Shown: positions 1 to 8,781 of the stretch, in pieces
Position numbering within the stretch: position 1 is the stretch's first letter
Layout of the letters: every line of letters starts with the position of its first letter
Source of the DNA: Candidatus Thorarchaeota archaeon
GTDB taxonomy: Archaea > Asgardarchaeota > Thorarchaeia > Thorarchaeales > Thorarchaeaceae
Direction of reading: 5' to 3'
Length of the DNA: 32,867 nt
Assembly (NCBI GenBank): GCA_004376265.1
Contig: SOKL01000140.1
Coordinates: forward strand, 1 to 32,867
Made by a program: the position numbers and the translations under genes
Notes under the pieces: model-generated
Databases searched by the model: none
Seen by the model: only the letters and a program-made list of their open reading frames with translations
What the model was told of the DNA's origin: nothing

Positions 1-529
1 CTACTCCATCAAGAACTATCCTCGAACCCGGACGGATAATCATAATATCCCCCATTTGTACAGCTGTTGTAGGAATATATGCCTCTGCACCTTTCATCCG
101 AATTGTTACTGAAGGTGGCTCTAACTCAATTAGACTCTGTATCTCTTTCCGTACTTGATTTTCAGCTCTTTCTTCAAGTAGCATGGATATGTAGAACAGG
201 AACATTACTGCAGCGCCCTCAGCAGGGGCACCAATGATCATAGCTCCAATTGAAGCTGAACTCATGAGAAAGTGCATGTCAAGTCTCAGTTTGAGGAGAC
301 CTCTCATACCTTGAGGAATGATGAACTGTCCTGCTGACAACATTGAAACAATGAAAACAGTGTAGACCCAGAAGACGTCCATAGAAAACAGTTCCAAGAT
401 AATACCCAGGACAAGTGTTGAAACCGAGAGTACCGCCATGCCATACTTGTACCTCAAAGATTTCTGGTTTTCTGAGCCCGTTAATGACGCGCAAGTTGCA
501 CATGATGTGGATTCATTTTCCTGTGACAT
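1..529 (-). CDS. Heavy-metal P1B-type ATPase, N-terminal part (cut by window edge)
   Basis: Membrane pump of the CadA/ZntA heavy-metal P-type ATPase family, expected to export a divalent or soft metal. About 176 residues are visible. They comprise a short N-terminus with a CATC motif (residues 10-13), membrane helices from about residue 31, the family signature RLDMHFLM followed by an EGAAVMFLFYISMLLEERA stretch, and the start of the actuator domain with GDIMIIRPGSRIVLDGV. The phosphorylation (DKTG) and ATP-binding regions lie outside the window. A full ferredoxin-like metal-binding (HMA) domain is absent and only the CxxC remains. The start at 529 lies inside the end of the arsR gene and has AGAGGG 9 nt upstream. 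An ATG at 535 is an alternative. Co-transcription with the repressor is inferred from the overlap. Confidence 0.87.
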   Translation of the reverse strand, partial: MSQENESTSCATCASLTGSENQKSLRYKYGMAVLSVSTLVLGIILELFSMDVFWVYTVFIVSMLSAGQFIIPQGMRGLLKLRLDMHFLMSSASIGAMIIGAPAEGAAVMFLFYISMLLEERAENQVRKEIQSLIELEPPSVTIRMKGAEAYIPTTAVQMGDIMIIRPGSRIVLDGV

Positions 530-821
530 GGTCATGTGCCCTCTGCAAAATATCGATAATACAATTATCTTCTATGCTATAGAAGACTTGTTTTCCGTCT
601 TTTCTGGGTTTTACAAATCCATGAATTTTCAGTGTACTTAGATGGTGACTTACAAGACTTATCTCCATCCCAAGGAGATTAGCAATGCTGCTCACTGAGA
701 GGCTCTTTCGCTTGCTCAATATGGATAGAATTCGTACTCTAGATGGATCAGAAAGCAACTTGAAGATACTAATCATATCTTCCATTTCACTCTCTTTGAA
801 TTCTGTCACCCCTGCTTTCAT
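513..821 (-). CDS. ArsR/SmtB-family metal-responsive repressor
   Basis: Winged-helix repressor of about 102 residues, normal for ArsR/SmtB proteins. It has the family core LLSDPSRVRILSIL, a recognition helix around ISLVSHHLSTLK and a beta-hairpin wing FVKPRKDGKQVFYS. The C-terminal helix reads EDNCIIDILQRAHDH. Aligned by eye to the CzrA alpha-5 zinc site (Asp, His, His, His), it keeps Asp and the third ligand His but has Cys in place of the second ligand and Gly in place of the fourth. That suggests a different metal preference. The reading frame stays open upstream to 917, but the TATA-like box and palindrome there look like a promoter/operator, so the ATG at 821 is preferred. The gene overlaps the metal ATPase it presumably controls. 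Confidence 0.85.
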   Translation of the reverse strand: MKAGVTEFKESEMEDMISIFKLLSDPSRVRILSILSKRKSLSVSSIANLLGMEISLVSHHLSTLKIHGFVKPRKDGKQVFYSIEDNCIIDILQRAHDHVTGK

Positions 822-921: not shown

Positions 922-2793
922 GTGTATGTTTTAGTGATTTACACAAGCAAGCTATATGAGGGTAATATTGATGCAAATTCTAGTATAAGTGCGACAGATT
1001 CGCCTCAGGGCGGGACAGACTTGCAGGACCAGCATAAGAACAATACGACCAGCCTCGAAAGTGAGTATTTCGGGATGGTCATGATGGCCAATGATGGAAT
1101 TGTGATTCTACAGGATGAAAGAATCGTCATGGCAAATCCTGCACTTCTTGAAATGTTAGATTATGACATTAAGAGTCTTTACGGACGTCCAATTACAGAT
1201 TTACTTGAACCAGCTACTGCTCATCAATTCACTGAGATCCAAGAAAGCTTTGACTGGGGACAAGTTGGAAGACCTCCTTTTAGAGCACGCTTTGTGAAGA
1301 AAGGAGGCGACATCGTTCATGTGGAGATTAGTACGTCCGATTTTGCATTCTCAAATAGACCTGCAATCATGGGAATTGTTAGGAATGTTTCAAGAAATGT
1401 GGAATTGGAAGCCGCTATCGATGCCTCAGAAAGTCGATACCGCGCTCTGTTTGATTCTTCTCCAATGGCATACTTTTCTCTAAGCCTAATGGGTAACATT
1501 CAGCATGTAAACCAAGCTGCTTCAAATTTACTTGGATATGATGAAAAAGATCTTCTACGTAGAAATCTGGCTTCATTTCTCCCAAATGGAGACTCAAAAG
1601 AAATCGTTGGACAAATGATTTCAGAGGCAGCAAATGGGAAGAGTGTAGCAGATTTCGAAATGCAAATGAAGACAAAAGATGGCCGATTATCGTGGGTCAG
1701 CGTTACTGCCAATCTTCTTGAATATCCCAATCAGTCATCAACAATTGCTCTGATTGCTTTGGATATTGACCGGCGAAAGAATGCAGAAGGCAGAGAAAAG
1801 ATTGAACGAGATAGAGCTAACCTTTACCTAGAGGTGATGACGCATGATCTTAACAATGTCAATCAGAGCCTCTTGTTCTCCACCGGACTATTAGAGGTTT
1901 CAGACGATATCCCTGATCAATATGGTCCAATATTACGAGAATCAAGCTGGAATGTTCGTCGAGCTGCACGAATGGTCGCAAATCTCAGAGCTCTATTTAG
2001 ACTAGCAAATGATCCCCCAACAAGAGAGAAAGTTGACCTCTATGATTATTTTCAATCCGCTTTATTGACAGTCAAACGAGATTTCCCATGGAAGACACTC
2101 AAGCTAACTACCAATATCGAAAAGGGTATGTTTGAAGTAGCAGGACACCAATACCTTGAGCAAGTGTGCTTCAACATCCTTCACAATGCTATGAGCTTTG
2201 ACGAGAGTGATATTGTGATACTTGAAGTCAATGCTGAAGTTGTGGAAGCTGTCAAAATGGTTCGGATTGAATTCCGTGATCGAGGCCCTGGAGTACCCGA
2301 TAGCGCAAAGGAATTCATCTTTCGAAGAACTGGCAGTCCTGACGATCAAATCGTTGGTCGTGGACTTGGTCTTACTCTTGTTGATAGAATTCTGAAAAAC
2401 GTCGGTGGCAAGATTAAGGTTGAGGACTGCGTGAAAGGAGATCCTGCCCAAGGAGCAAATTTCATTCTATTATTGCCATTATGGGTTGAAACTCCAGAAT
2501 TGCATTGTGGACAAAAGACATGCATTACATTTTACAAATCAAATCATTGTGTTTTCTGTGATCCTGCAATGGAAGTTCTAACTGCAGTACTTGATTCAAT
2601 GGGAGTTCCTCAGAGTATGATTGAATCAATCAATGTTGATGACCCCACTGTTGATATCAAAGAGGATGAATTTCCAATGTTGCCCTTCATTAAAATCTGT
2701 AAAACTGAACTTACTGGTTTCATTTCCGAATCCTCAATTCGAGGTGCTGTCATGAACCTTATGATGGAACAATGCTACCCTGAATTTGCATGA
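922..2793 (+). CDS. PAS-PAS histidine kinase with C-terminal thioredoxin-like domain
   Basis: Cytoplasmic sensor histidine kinase of up to 623 residues with no membrane segment. It has PAS domain 1 (about 48-160), PAS domain 2 (about 168-285) and a dimerisation/phosphoacceptor helix with HDLNN (His308). The HATPase domain shows an N-box around Asn422, DRGPGVP at 453-459 and GRGLGLTL at 479-486. Residues about 534-613 then form a thioredoxin/glutaredoxin-like fold with CVFC at 543-546 and a likely cis-proline in MLPFI (Pro588). Such a C-terminal addition is not usual for histidine kinases and suggests redox input or output through the CxxC. No response regulator is adjacent. The start is uncertain: GTG 922 gives the longest frame, but TTG 1021 still keeps PAS 1 whole and would suit a TATA-like CTATAT near 952. 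Confidence 0.88.
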   Translation: MYVLVIYTSKLYEGNIDANSSISATDSPQGGTDLQDQHKNNTTSLESEYFGMVMMANDGIVILQDERIVMANPALLEMLDYDIKSLYGRPITDLLEPATAHQFTEIQESFDWGQVGRPPFRARFVKKGGDIVHVEISTSDFAFSNRPAIMGIVRNVSRNVELEAAIDASESRYRALFDSSPMAYFSLSLMGNIQHVNQAASNLLGYDEKDLLRRNLASFLPNGDSKEIVGQMISEAANGKSVADFEMQMKTKDGRLSWVSVTANLLEYPNQSSTIALIALDIDRRKNAEGREKIERDRANLYLEVMTHDLNNVNQSLLFSTGLLEVSDDIPDQYGPILRESSWNVRRAARMVANLRALFRLANDPPTREKVDLYDYFQSALLTVKRDFPWKTLKLTTNIEKGMFEVAGHQYLEQVCFNILHNAMSFDESDIVILEVNAEVVEAVKMVRIEFRDRGPGVPDSAKEFIFRRTGSPDDQIVGRGLGLTLVDRILKNVGGKIKVEDCVKGDPAQGANFILLLPLWVETPELHCGQKTCITFYKSNHCVFCDPAMEVLTAVLDSMGVPQSMIESINVDDPTVDIKEDEFPMLPFIKICKTELTGFISESSIRGAVMNLMMEQCYPEFA

Positions 2794-2931: not shown

Positions 2932-3333
2932 GTGCTCTTACTGAGTATTATTGATCATATTACGACACTACTTGATGATGTGGAAATCAAGTACACACGC
3001 GAAGACAATGTCCTCATGACTCGGTGGAAAACAGACCACTTCGAGGATCTTAAGATTAAGATAATGGCAAACAATGATGAATCTTGGGCTTATATCATCG
3101 CTCCATTCACCAACTTCTATGAAGTTGAGGAAAGTAAAAGGATGAAGCTCGCTTATGATATGCTTAAGGAATCCTATAAGGTAAATGGAGTCAAGTTTGC
3201 TATTGATGATGATGACGACATGATTGTATTAGCCGAGACCAATGATACTGACCTTACCAGTGATGAAATACAAACTCTGGTAGGTCATGTCGTGCACGCT
3301 TGCGATACTTTGTGGGAAATTTTTCCTTCATAG
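2932..3333 (+). CDS. YbjN-domain-like small protein
   Basis: Acidic soluble protein of 133 residues resembling the YbjN / type III secretion chaperone-like fold. It has an N-terminal helix, two or three strands (ESWAYIIAPF), a central helix rich in Lys and Glu (ESKRMKLAYDMLKES), then VKFAIDDDDDMIVLAE and a final helix ending HVVHACDTLWEIF. The molecular role of this family is not established; it is thought to bind other proteins. The start is GTG at 2932, with TTAATATG centred near 2902 on the same strand, a distance that fits a leaderless or nearly leaderless mRNA. The family call rests on overall pattern only. Confidence 0.6.
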   Translation: MLLLSIIDHITTLLDDVEIKYTREDNVLMTRWKTDHFEDLKIKIMANNDESWAYIIAPFTNFYEVEESKRMKLAYDMLKESYKVNGVKFAIDDDDDMIVLAETNDTDLTSDEIQTLVGHVVHACDTLWEIFPS

Positions 3334-4124: not shown

Positions 4125-4856
4125 GTGACAAGGTTCTCTATTAGGTACGTTGCATCAGATGGTGAGAAGTATCAGGTTGAGAAAGATGACTATTACACTG
4201 AGATTGATCTTTCAGACTCTCGTATTAAATCAATAAGCCTTGAACCATTGGGCCAATGTTCAAACCTTAAAGAGCTGAATCTTGATGCTAATCTTTTATC
4301 TGCGATTGACCTCTCTCCATTATCTAATTGTTCCAAAATAGAAATGCTCAGCATAACCTCTAACGAACTTACCGAAATTGATCTTGAACCATTATCCGAA
4401 TGCTACTCGCTTCAAGCTCTTGAGCTCAGTGATAATACGTTGTTCGAGATAGATCTTGAACCACTTAGAAAATGTACATCACTCAAGTGGTTGTATATTG
4501 CTAATAACCAACTTAGAGAGATTGATCTCTCCCCATTGGAGAATAACACAAATCTGCAATATCTTGTACTTTCTGGAAATCTTCTACGCAAGATCGACTT
4601 ATCGCCATTACACAAATCTGAAGATTTCAGGTATATTCACCTGGATGAGAACGCGTTTGAAAGCATCGACATATCCAGTCTATTTCAATTTGAGAACTTG
4701 GAATCTTTAGTGATTGATGCTAAAACAGTTCTCGTAGCTAATCATAAACTGAAACACCTTCATTACTTCCCAGATCCAATCAACGAGAAACTGAGTGAAA
4801 TAGAATGGTCACACGATGTACAAGAGCAAGGAATTGAAAAAGAGCGAATCACATAA
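4125..4856 (+). CDS. Leucine-rich-repeat protein, seven 24-residue repeats
   Basis: Soluble protein of 243 residues with no signal peptide. After about 27 residues it consists of seven head-to-tail repeats of exactly 24 residues (roughly 28-195) of the form LxLxxNxLxxIDLSPLxxCxxLxx, ending in a cap containing LVID and a charged tail. The invariant IDLxPL and the Cys at repeat position 19 in the first four repeats are clear. In the last three repeats that Cys is lost (Asn, Ser, Phe). LRR arcs usually bind proteins, but no partner can be named. GTG at 4125 is the first in-frame start; a TATA-like GGATATAAAG lies near 4002-4011. The next gene is a longer paralogue 51 nt downstream, probably co-transcribed. 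Confidence 0.85.
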   Translation: MTRFSIRYVASDGEKYQVEKDDYYTEIDLSDSRIKSISLEPLGQCSNLKELNLDANLLSAIDLSPLSNCSKIEMLSITSNELTEIDLEPLSECYSLQALELSDNTLFEIDLEPLRKCTSLKWLYIANNQLREIDLSPLENNTNLQYLVLSGNLLRKIDLSPLHKSEDFRYIHLDENAFESIDISSLFQFENLESLVIDAKTVLVANHKLKHLHYFPDPINEKLSEIEWSHDVQEQGIEKERIT

Positions 4857-4907
4857 TACTCGACGATTTATGATGAGTGTTTTACTGAAACATGTTCGGA
4901 AGAGACA

Positions 4908-5759
4908 ATGAGGATTCAACCTATGTCTGAAATTCACATCAATTTCACAATCGAAAATGGAGTGGAACTTTACTTTCAGACTAGTAATGATGCCACAGAA
5001 GTGGATCTCTCAGGAAGAAGTATTGTAGAAATTGACCTATCCCCTCTCACTGAATGTACGAACCTCCGAAACCTCAATCTCTCTGCTAATTTTATTCGAA
5101 GTGTCAACCTTGAGTCGCTCGGTATGTGCACTAAACTTGAGAAGCTCTCCCTAGGCTCAAATCTCTTATCTTCAATCGACTTGTCACCTCTAGCTACATG
5201 CACAAATTTGGACACCCTTTCGCTAGAGATAAACAAGCTACAAAGAATCGATTTGTCAGGATTACAGAATTGCTCACGGTTGCAAGAAATCAATTTACAC
5301 TCTAACGATTTTCAGAACATTGATGTATCACCTCTGGGTAAGTGCTCGGCTCTCAGGTTTGTCAGACTTGATGATAATCAACTGTATGACATAGATCTAG
5401 AACCATTCTCCAATTGCTCCAGGCTCCAAGAATTGTTCCTAGAGAATAATCAGTTTGAAGAATTAGACTTGTCACCTCTCGGTAACTGCATTTTCTTGGA
5501 GGGTTTATGGTTACGGTCCACGCAGATACTTGAGATTGAATTGCATCCACTAATGGAGTGCAAGAACCTTCTTTGGTTGGACGTGAGTGAGAATCAAATG
5601 AAGACCGTGGATGTTTCACCATTATTCTATTGTTCCGATTTCGAAAAATTCCTGATAGACGAAACAGTTCCAATGAAGGCACATGTTGAATTGACTGATG
5701 AAGATTGGCCAATGGCTTTTGATTCAATAAAAGAACGAATTTTCTGGGTAAAGCAATAG
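4908..5759 (+). CDS. Leucine-rich-repeat protein, nine 24-residue repeats
   Basis: Soluble protein of 283 residues, a paralogue of the gene just upstream. Nine uninterrupted repeats of 24 residues run from about residue 30 to 245 (first unit VDLSGRSIVEIDLSPLTEC). All but the first two-residue positions follow LxLxxNxLxxIDLSPLxxCxxLxx. Cys occupies position 19 in every unit, so the folded protein would carry a continuous ladder of cysteines along the solenoid. A cap with FLID follows, matching LVID in the neighbour. The N-terminal segment (IHINFTIENGVELYF) also matches the neighbour's. ATG 4908 is preceded by a weak GGAAGAG. Repeat number, but not repeat length, differs between the two, consistent with unequal expansion after duplication. 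Confidence 0.86.
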   Translation: MRIQPMSEIHINFTIENGVELYFQTSNDATEVDLSGRSIVEIDLSPLTECTNLRNLNLSANFIRSVNLESLGMCTKLEKLSLGSNLLSSIDLSPLATCTNLDTLSLEINKLQRIDLSGLQNCSRLQEINLHSNDFQNIDVSPLGKCSALRFVRLDDNQLYDIDLEPFSNCSRLQELFLENNQFEELDLSPLGNCIFLEGLWLRSTQILEIELHPLMECKNLLWLDVSENQMKTVDVSPLFYCSDFEKFLIDETVPMKAHVELTDEDWPMAFDSIKERIFWVKQ

Positions 5760-7509: not shown

Positions 7510-8073
7510 ATGGAACCACAAAAGCTTGCAATTGTTGGAGTGATGTTGGTTGTCGTGACTGTTGGTTTGCTCATTGGAGCAGCTTTCATGACATTCCCAG
7601 CAGGTGACGATGATCCACTCACAAAGTATTCCCTTGATCGTGATTTACTGGAACTGGCTCTTCCAGCTCCAAGTGATTGGTCATTTGAAATGTCAGACGG
7701 CACGACTTTATTATTGAGCGACTTACGTGGACAAGTTGTATTAGTTGATTTGATGGCAACCTGGTGCTCAACGTGCAAATTTCAGAATGAATTTCTTGAA
7801 ACCGTAAATGAGAATCTTGCTGGCATAGCTGTAGTTCTCTCATTGTCTGTTGACCTTGGATACGACAATATACCTTCGATGGCACAATACATGGTCGACG
7901 AGGGAGTCACTTGGGCTCACGGACTCGATACCGGCTATTCATTCAATAATTACTTCAATGTAGTATCAATTCCTTCAATGGTTCTCATTGATGCTGATGG
8001 TATATTCAGATACTTTCACATTGGTCTTTGGAGTGCAGCTAGCATCAGTGATATTATTGCAACAATTCTTTAG
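7510..8073 (+). CDS. Membrane-anchored TlpA/ResA-like thioredoxin
   Basis: Thiol-disulfide oxidoreductase of 187 residues anchored by one N-terminal helix (about 7-28), with the redoxin domain outside the membrane. It shows the TlpA-type order: a strand-turn with LLLSDLRGQVVLVDLMATWCSTCK carrying the active CSTC (Cys86, Cys89), then a cis-proline in VVSIPSMVLI (Pro155) and DADGIFRYFHIG. The following gene encodes a CcdA-like electron carrier 15 nt away. Together they form a classical pair that passes reducing equivalents from cytoplasmic thioredoxin to the outside. A BRE/TATA-like AAACCTTTTTATG at about 7399-7411 may be the promoter of the pair. Confidence 0.85.
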   Translation: MEPQKLAIVGVMLVVVTVGLLIGAAFMTFPAGDDDPLTKYSLDRDLLELALPAPSDWSFEMSDGTTLLLSDLRGQVVLVDLMATWCSTCKFQNEFLETVNENLAGIAVVLSLSVDLGYDNIPSMAQYMVDEGVTWAHGLDTGYSFNNYFNVVSIPSMVLIDADGIFRYFHIGLWSAASISDIIATIL

Positions 8074-8088
8074 TTGGGGTAATGTGGA

Positions 8089-8781
8089 GTGCAGGGGATC
8101 ATTGAGGTAGGACTTCTACTTGCTAAACTAGTCGGAGTGTTTGGATCAGGATTATACATTGCAATGTCCCCCTGTCTTTTCCCCCTTCTTCCTCTCTTCT
8201 TACTGAATAGTTTGAAATCAGCAGACAGCCGGAAGCGTAGTGTGCTCGTGACTGCTGTTCTTGTGGTAGGGATACTCAGCTCGCTAGCAATTTTCTTATC
8301 GATTGCATGGTTTATTGGCTCATTGCTGATTCAATATTACATTAGAATCCAAGCTATTTTGGGATTAATCATAATCTTTCTGGGCATTGTGACAATGTCA
8401 ACTACCCTGAAGAACAAGATTGGACTTTCAAGTTTATCCTTCAGATCTCAACCTTCTGCACCCTCAAATTTGAAGAGTGTGTTTTTAGTTGGTTTCGGTT
8501 ATTCTCTTTTGGCAGCCCCCTGTTCAGGTTCAGCAATATTCGGTGTGATTGCACTCTTTGGTGCTGAAACTGGTTTTCTAATCCCTGTATTACTATTCAT
8601 TGTACTCTCAATTGCAGTTTCTATTCCTTACTTCGCAATTGCTGTTGTGACAGGTGAAGCAAGGATGAGGATGGCGATGTCAATTAGCACTCACGCTAGG
8701 AAAGTAGAGATTGTTGCCGGCCTGATACTTATCGTGATAGGGACACTCTTGTTCTCACAACTCTTTGGATTCAGATTTTAG
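8089..8781 (+). CDS. CcdA-type thiol electron-transfer membrane protein
   Basis: Six-helix membrane protein of 230 residues from the CcdA/DsbD-core family, which carries electrons across the membrane through two buried cysteines. The expected cysteine motifs are present: MSPCLFPLLP (Cys29) in the first helix and LLAAPCSGSA (Cys145) in the fourth. Length is normal for CcdA. GTG 8089 follows the TlpA-like gene by 15 nt and is preceded by GTGGA. The pairing with a TlpA-like partner supports export of reducing power to an extracellular thioredoxin. The final acceptor (cytochrome c maturation or protein thiols) cannot be told from the window. Confidence 0.85.
   Translation: MQGIIEVGLLLAKLVGVFGSGLYIAMSPCLFPLLPLFLLNSLKSADSRKRSVLVTAVLVVGILSSLAIFLSIAWFIGSLLIQYYIRIQAILGLIIIFLGIVTMSTTLKNKIGLSSLSFRSQPSAPSNLKSVFLVGFGYSLLAAPCSGSAIFGVIALFGAETGFLIPVLLFIVLSIAVSIPYFAIAVVTGEARMRMAMSISTHARKVEIVAGLILIVIGTLLFSQLFGFRF

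Follow-up and report, generated by a model that had tools for sequence, protein, structure and literature searches.

Several described systems each share part of the design of the protein considered here, a histidine kinase with a predicted thioredoxin-like tail that is encoded in a 32,867-nt stretch of a Candidatus Thorarchaeota contig (SOKL01000140.1, hereafter the window). MJ0307 and MtTrx (1fo5 and 1nho), the best sequence-profile matches of this tail among solved structures, are like it in fold, in size and in having a CxxC after strand 1 together with a cis-Pro, but they stand alone, unfused to a kinase, and have no accessory Cys4. SasA, too, is a histidine kinase that contains a thioredoxin-like fold, although its KaiB-like domain is N-terminal, has no catalytic Cys and serves in docking, whereas the window tail is C-terminal and its CxxC invariant; a KaiB/SasA-type docking class was rejected on these grounds. 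NifL has a comparable PAS-PAS-kinase-like chassis (NifL-NifA is the second Foldseek match of the full-length model) and senses redox without phosphotransfer, in which it is comparable to a clade of relatives that lack the phosphoacceptor His. Unlike the window kinase, NifL does so via FAD in a PAS domain and has no thioredoxin domain. Trx2 of E. coli and Deinococcus is a zinc-binding thioredoxin that, like the tail, bears four additional Cys outside the active site (PMC8945050). In Trx2, however, an N-terminal zinc finger contains a pair of CxxC motifs; the tail has no such finger, and its accessory Cys are spread out (ahead of strand 1, where strand 3 ends and at the C-terminus), so that the zinc thioredoxin class was rejected as well. 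Response regulator-thioredoxin reductase fusions were reported from Heimdallarchaeota in an archaeal two-component census (PMC5847659); these are likewise two-component/thiol-redox fusions in Asgard archaea, but combine a receiver with a thioredoxin reductase rather than a kinase with a thioredoxin. Among the open-access papers searched, none was found to describe a histidine kinase with a thioredoxin tail, and thioredoxin is not mentioned in the Asgard kinase paper PMC10343646.

The full-length model of the window protein shows the order PAS-PAS-DHp-CA-thioredoxin (Table 1). PAS_9 was significant in two stretches (E 3.6e-22 for the whole protein), while the DHp was matched by no Pfam HisKA model. 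The two PAS domains named by an earlier, sequence-only reading and the ATPase domain of its histidine kinase core were borne out by significant Pfam matches, and the core motifs (His308, DRGPGVP, GRGLGL) are where that reading had put them. Having a sensor domain, a DHp His and the N, D and G boxes of HATPase_c, the protein is best read as a soluble, cytosolic sensor histidine kinase with predicted kinase activity. Its true start is probably the TTG at 1021, giving 590 aa, because the first residue of the orthologues corresponds to residue 34; residue numbers (C543, P588 and so on) nevertheless follow the 623-aa open reading frame of the window.

Table 1 Coordinates of the kinase, its neighbours and selected homologues (window positions unless a contig or locus is named)
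Feature	Position	Strand	Remarks
P1B heavy-metal ATPase, N-terminal part	2..535	-	Cut by contig end
ArsR/SmtB-family metalloregulator	513..821	-	Probable ATG start 821; Pfam HTH_5 5e-12; NF033788 6.9e-23, above cut-off
Perfect palindrome TTGAACAATTGTTCAA	851..866	.	Between ArsR and kinase; putative ArsR/SmtB-type operator
Fused histidine kinase ORF	922..2793	+	623 codons/aa as listed, GTG start
PAS domain 1	1054..1404	+	About residues 45-161; Pfam PAS_9/PAS; boundaries from full-length model
PAS domain 2	1417..1776	+	About residues 166-285; Pfam PAS_9 182-268; full-length model
DHp helices with phosphoacceptor His308	1768..2011	+	His codon 1843-1845, in MTHDLNNVNQ; full-length model
HATPase_c catalytic domain	2155..2481	+	Pfam 412-520, E 1e-13; N box NILHN, DRGPGVP, GRGLGL
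C-terminal thioredoxin-fold domain (predicted)	2497..2790	+	Residues 526-623; AlphaFold2, Foldseek, conservation, profile links
His-less paralogue in the same genome (L117)	G000:C137 3670-5406		SNDLN for HDLN, degenerate N box, CxxC kept
Stand-alone six-Cys glutaredoxin-like examples	L118:4762-5133, L119:3109-3462, L120:566-928		

The claim that a thioredoxin-like CxxC domain is fused to this kinase was upheld by structure prediction and by conservation across the family. AlphaFold2, given a 47-sequence alignment, modelled the tail with thioredoxin topology (mean pLDDT 80.2, pTM 0.71), its strands (22-26, 54-58, 76-79 and 82-85) and helices (33-46 and 90-101) following one another in thioredoxin order. 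The predicted beta-alpha-beta-(alpha)-beta-beta-alpha arrangement is that of the thioredoxin superfamily, with the CxxC (CVFC, 543-546) at the start of helix 1 and P588 at the cis-Pro site before strand 3; the classical WCGPC/CPYC motif is absent. Almost all top Foldseek matches of the tail in the PDB were thioredoxins or glutaredoxins (probability ~1, TM 0.45-0.6, best E only 0.007), D. radiodurans Trx2 ranking first and fold-switched KaiB being among them. Past residue ~526, Pfam gave sub-threshold matches only (Glrx-like E 0.022, Glutaredoxin 0.13), and the tail alone matched no curated thioredoxin or glutaredoxin model of Pfam or NCBIfam above cut-off. Profile comparisons linked it to stand-alone Thorarchaeota homologues (hhalign E 5.5e-33), whose own profile reached 1nho at 1.4e-5 and 1fo5 (MJ0307) at 4e-4, and to other Asgard thioredoxin-like sequences, some of which Pfam calls Thioredoxin (E 4e-16). 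Human glutaredoxin 2 was a weak profile match, and a parallel to its structural disulfide was considered, for which the literature searched offered no usable support. These results are best explained by the fusion of a glutaredoxin/thioredoxin-like domain, of the kind seen in archaeal MJ0307 and MtTrx, to the C-terminal side of the ATPase domain; this tail is probably redox-active.

A search of 228 genomes of the phylum placed the fused kinase in 41 of the 47 genomes tallied for the window's family. The 47 named loci come from Thorarchaeota MAGs, a few of them labelled Lokiarchaeota or just archaeon. CxxC and cis-Pro are each invariant in the fused proteins (56/56), whereas the phosphoacceptor His is present in 33 of 56. 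The fused kinases, His-less clade included, stay under purifying selection, with dN/dS of ~0.03-0.15 in PAS, kinase and tail where dS was unsaturated; this and the fusion's presence in 41/47 family genomes rule out chance or a MAG artefact. Stand-alone relatives of ~98-135 aa with the same six Cys are common in the window's family; these glutaredoxin-like proteins (CGxxxC, CxxC, IC, DCF) fall below Pfam cut-offs and number several per Thorarchaeota genome. Separately, a second Asgard family (f11; L077:3128-5107 and L078-L081) comprises kinases whose thioredoxin domain is flanked on either side by a PAS domain (Pfam Thioredoxin 6.5e-7, significant) and, read by eye, a Thr in place of the HisKA His (ELTSTKLLEPL). 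Because both architecture and kinase core differ, the f11 fusion probably arose independently of that in the window's family.

In the 23 of 56 fused proteins without the phosphoacceptor His, its place is taken by S, Q, N, K or R, and in most of those from the window's genus the second N-box Asn has become Tyr. A maximum-likelihood tree, built with the His column and the tail left out, indicates a single loss of the His (support 100/98). The window's genome holds one such paralogue (L117), which like the 22 others lacks the His expected of a sensor kinase and is, by its sequence, a pseudo-histidine-kinase under purifying selection; its dN/dS ruled out a pseudogene. At least 22 genomes carry both the His-bearing and the His-less type, and on eight contigs the two lie on the same strand, ~17-24 kb apart. 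Since the sister clade lost the His and kept the CxxC, gating of autophosphorylation cannot be all that the domain does in this family, and the retained CxxC suggests that the thiol switch has an importance of its own.

Besides CVFC, the tail contains four further conserved Cys (C529, C534, C593 and C618). With the last of them scored within 4 alignment columns, all four are present in 36 of the fused proteins and none in the remaining 20 of 56, never a mixture, and every His-bearing protein has the full set. On the maximum-likelihood tree this distribution requires two changes and, as the losses cluster, the 4-or-0 pattern reflects few evolutionary events rather than 56 independent ones; it is the pattern that a single metal site or disulfide set would leave. 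The tail model puts C534 ahead of strand 1, C593 behind strand 3 and C618 behind the last helix; strands 1 and 3 have the CxxC and the cis-Pro at their opposite ends. These strand ends are opposite poles of the thioredoxin fold, so by fold topology the accessory Cys should cluster at the pole opposite the CxxC, and the four form a candidate metal site or set of structural disulfides. The main His-less clade, which keeps the CxxC, has neither Cys4 nor an ArsR neighbour.

An ArsR gene and a partial P1B ATPase gene lie upstream of the window kinase and divergent from it, as the sequence-only reading had it. A complete orthologue of the ATPase (L125:6131-8044) is ZntA/CadA-like, with a CPC motif and an above-cut-off match to the Cd family TIGR01512 (E 1e-145). 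Of the 22 informative loci of the His-bearing kinase, 20 have ArsR and/or the P1B ATPase beside it, with varying genes downstream, and the ArsR pair is absent at some His-type loci (L143, L153). The perfect palindrome TTGAACANNTGTTCAA in the intergenic region occurs once in the 3.04-Mb genome; among seven relatives scanned, three had perfect copies, and of the four sites in these three, three are at the same place. Weaker versions (at least 11/14 positions) were present in most other His-type upstream regions, as against ~7% of random 320-bp segments, and were not found upstream at two His-type loci without ArsR. The 851-866 palindrome resembles ArsR/SmtB operators, and from this likeness we take it to be one. 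A metal link of the kinase is thus suggested by the neighbourhood; the joint metal/redox response proposed earlier has gained the 20/22 ArsR/ZntA-like neighbourhood and a unique palindrome in the shared intergenic region, and is still something that we infer. Elsewhere in the window, 2932-3330 encodes a 133-aa protein with a sub-threshold YbjN Pfam match only and 76-79% identity across the genus, and 4125-5759 two consecutive leucine-rich-repeat proteins (repeat DLSPL..C..L..L.L..N.L..I) whose order is kept in relatives.

No response regulator adjoining the kinase was seen in the window's neighbourhood. In the genome, five matches to the receiver domain exceed the cut-off, and the kinase core is matched ~14 times. 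The closest paralogue without the fusion (37%) is immediately followed by a gene for a single-domain receiver, which makes a trans-acting single-domain receiver the likely partner type of the window kinase. As possible reductants, the genome encodes two or three strong TrxR-like flavoproteins, all below curated cut-off. Some 5 kb downstream of the kinase, 7510-8781 encodes a possible thiol-transfer pair: a redoxin/TlpA-like protein (WCSTC) and, immediately after it, a membrane protein recognised by eye as CcdA/DsbD-like.

Our main reading, which we hold at roughly even odds, is that a thiol switch (possibly thiol/metal) in the tail sets the output of the kinase, which would act on a separate receiver protein. 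The CVFC pair would cycle between dithiol and disulfide, or capture a soft metal, and the change of state would alter the packing of the tail on the ATPase/DHp core. Thiol stress, or stress from a thiol-reactive metal, could thereby set autophosphorylation of the PAS-tuned core, from which phosphate would pass in trans to a receiver protein, of which the genome has few. In the His-bearing type the Cys4 would make up a second site, set apart from the first in the structure, that either binds zinc or cadmium or consists of two disulfides, and the His-less paralogue with its CxxC would serve as a redox-responsive partner (heterodimer or competitor) rather than as a kinase.

The cognate receiver is not adjacent, however, and the region C-terminal to the ATPase domain is an unusual place for sensory input; both observations count against a switch in the tail. 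The clade that lost the His but kept the CxxC moreover shows that the tail is of value even where its own chain does not autophosphorylate, which a role as reductase or adaptor would explain just as well, and the stand-alone six-Cys homologues suggest that the domain does work of its own. These homologues also favour a reversal of the wiring, whereby the PAS/kinase chassis senses the signal and controls a tethered thiol-disulfide oxidoreductase, the tail being the output and the chassis, in the His-less clade, only an ATP- or ligand-driven scaffold. Such an arrangement would account for CxxC and cis-Pro outlasting the phosphoacceptor and also, in some members of the clade, the second Asn of the N box; it is unlikely, in our estimate, as the literature searched offered no earlier case of a thioredoxin driven by a kinase core and the tail is without the classical WCGPC/CPYC motif.

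The neighbourhood permits a third interpretation, that CVFC and/or Cys4 bind Zn, Cd or As(III) directly and the kinase is the phosphorelay arm of the ArsR/ZntA regulon, redox being secondary. The conserved divergent ArsR and Zn/Cd ATPase, the putative operator in the shared intergenic region and the all-or-none Cys4 are in its favour, but a CxxC that persists without Cys4 or ArsR neighbour in the main His-less clade, a cis-Pro whose conservation points to thiol chemistry and His-type loci from which the ArsR pair is missing (L143, L153) leave it unlikely as well. We give still less credence to a thioredoxin fold used for protein-protein recognition without redox chemistry, like the KaiB-like domain of SasA: there is precedent for a thioredoxin-like fold in that kinase (PMC3161067), and fold-switched KaiB appeared among the Foldseek matches, yet KaiB has no catalytic Cys (PMC3161067), whereas CxxC and cis-Pro are found here in 56/56. 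Returning to the switch in the tail, a wider version for the whole family may be entertained, although it seems doubtful: a Thorarchaeota-specific thiol/metal signalling module whose conserved function would be the thioredoxin tail and not phosphotransfer. It would pair a His-bearing kinase, controlled through an ArsR operator and equipped with Cys4 as a second, metal-binding site, with a His-less redox partner that works without phosphorylation and that most often shares the genome, in many cases at a distance of 17-24 kb.

If the main reading is true, a catalytic-type thioredoxin carried as the tail of a histidine kinase would tie thiol chemistry directly and physically to phosphorelay signalling, in a fusion fixed across a major Asgard lineage, the Thorarchaeota being related to the archaea from which eukaryotes arose. 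The His-less sister clade with its intact CxxC offers a natural test of whether kinase chassis or thiol switch carries the function, and the all-or-none Cys4 together with the ArsR-type putative operator would make thiol/metal coupling directly testable with recombinant protein.
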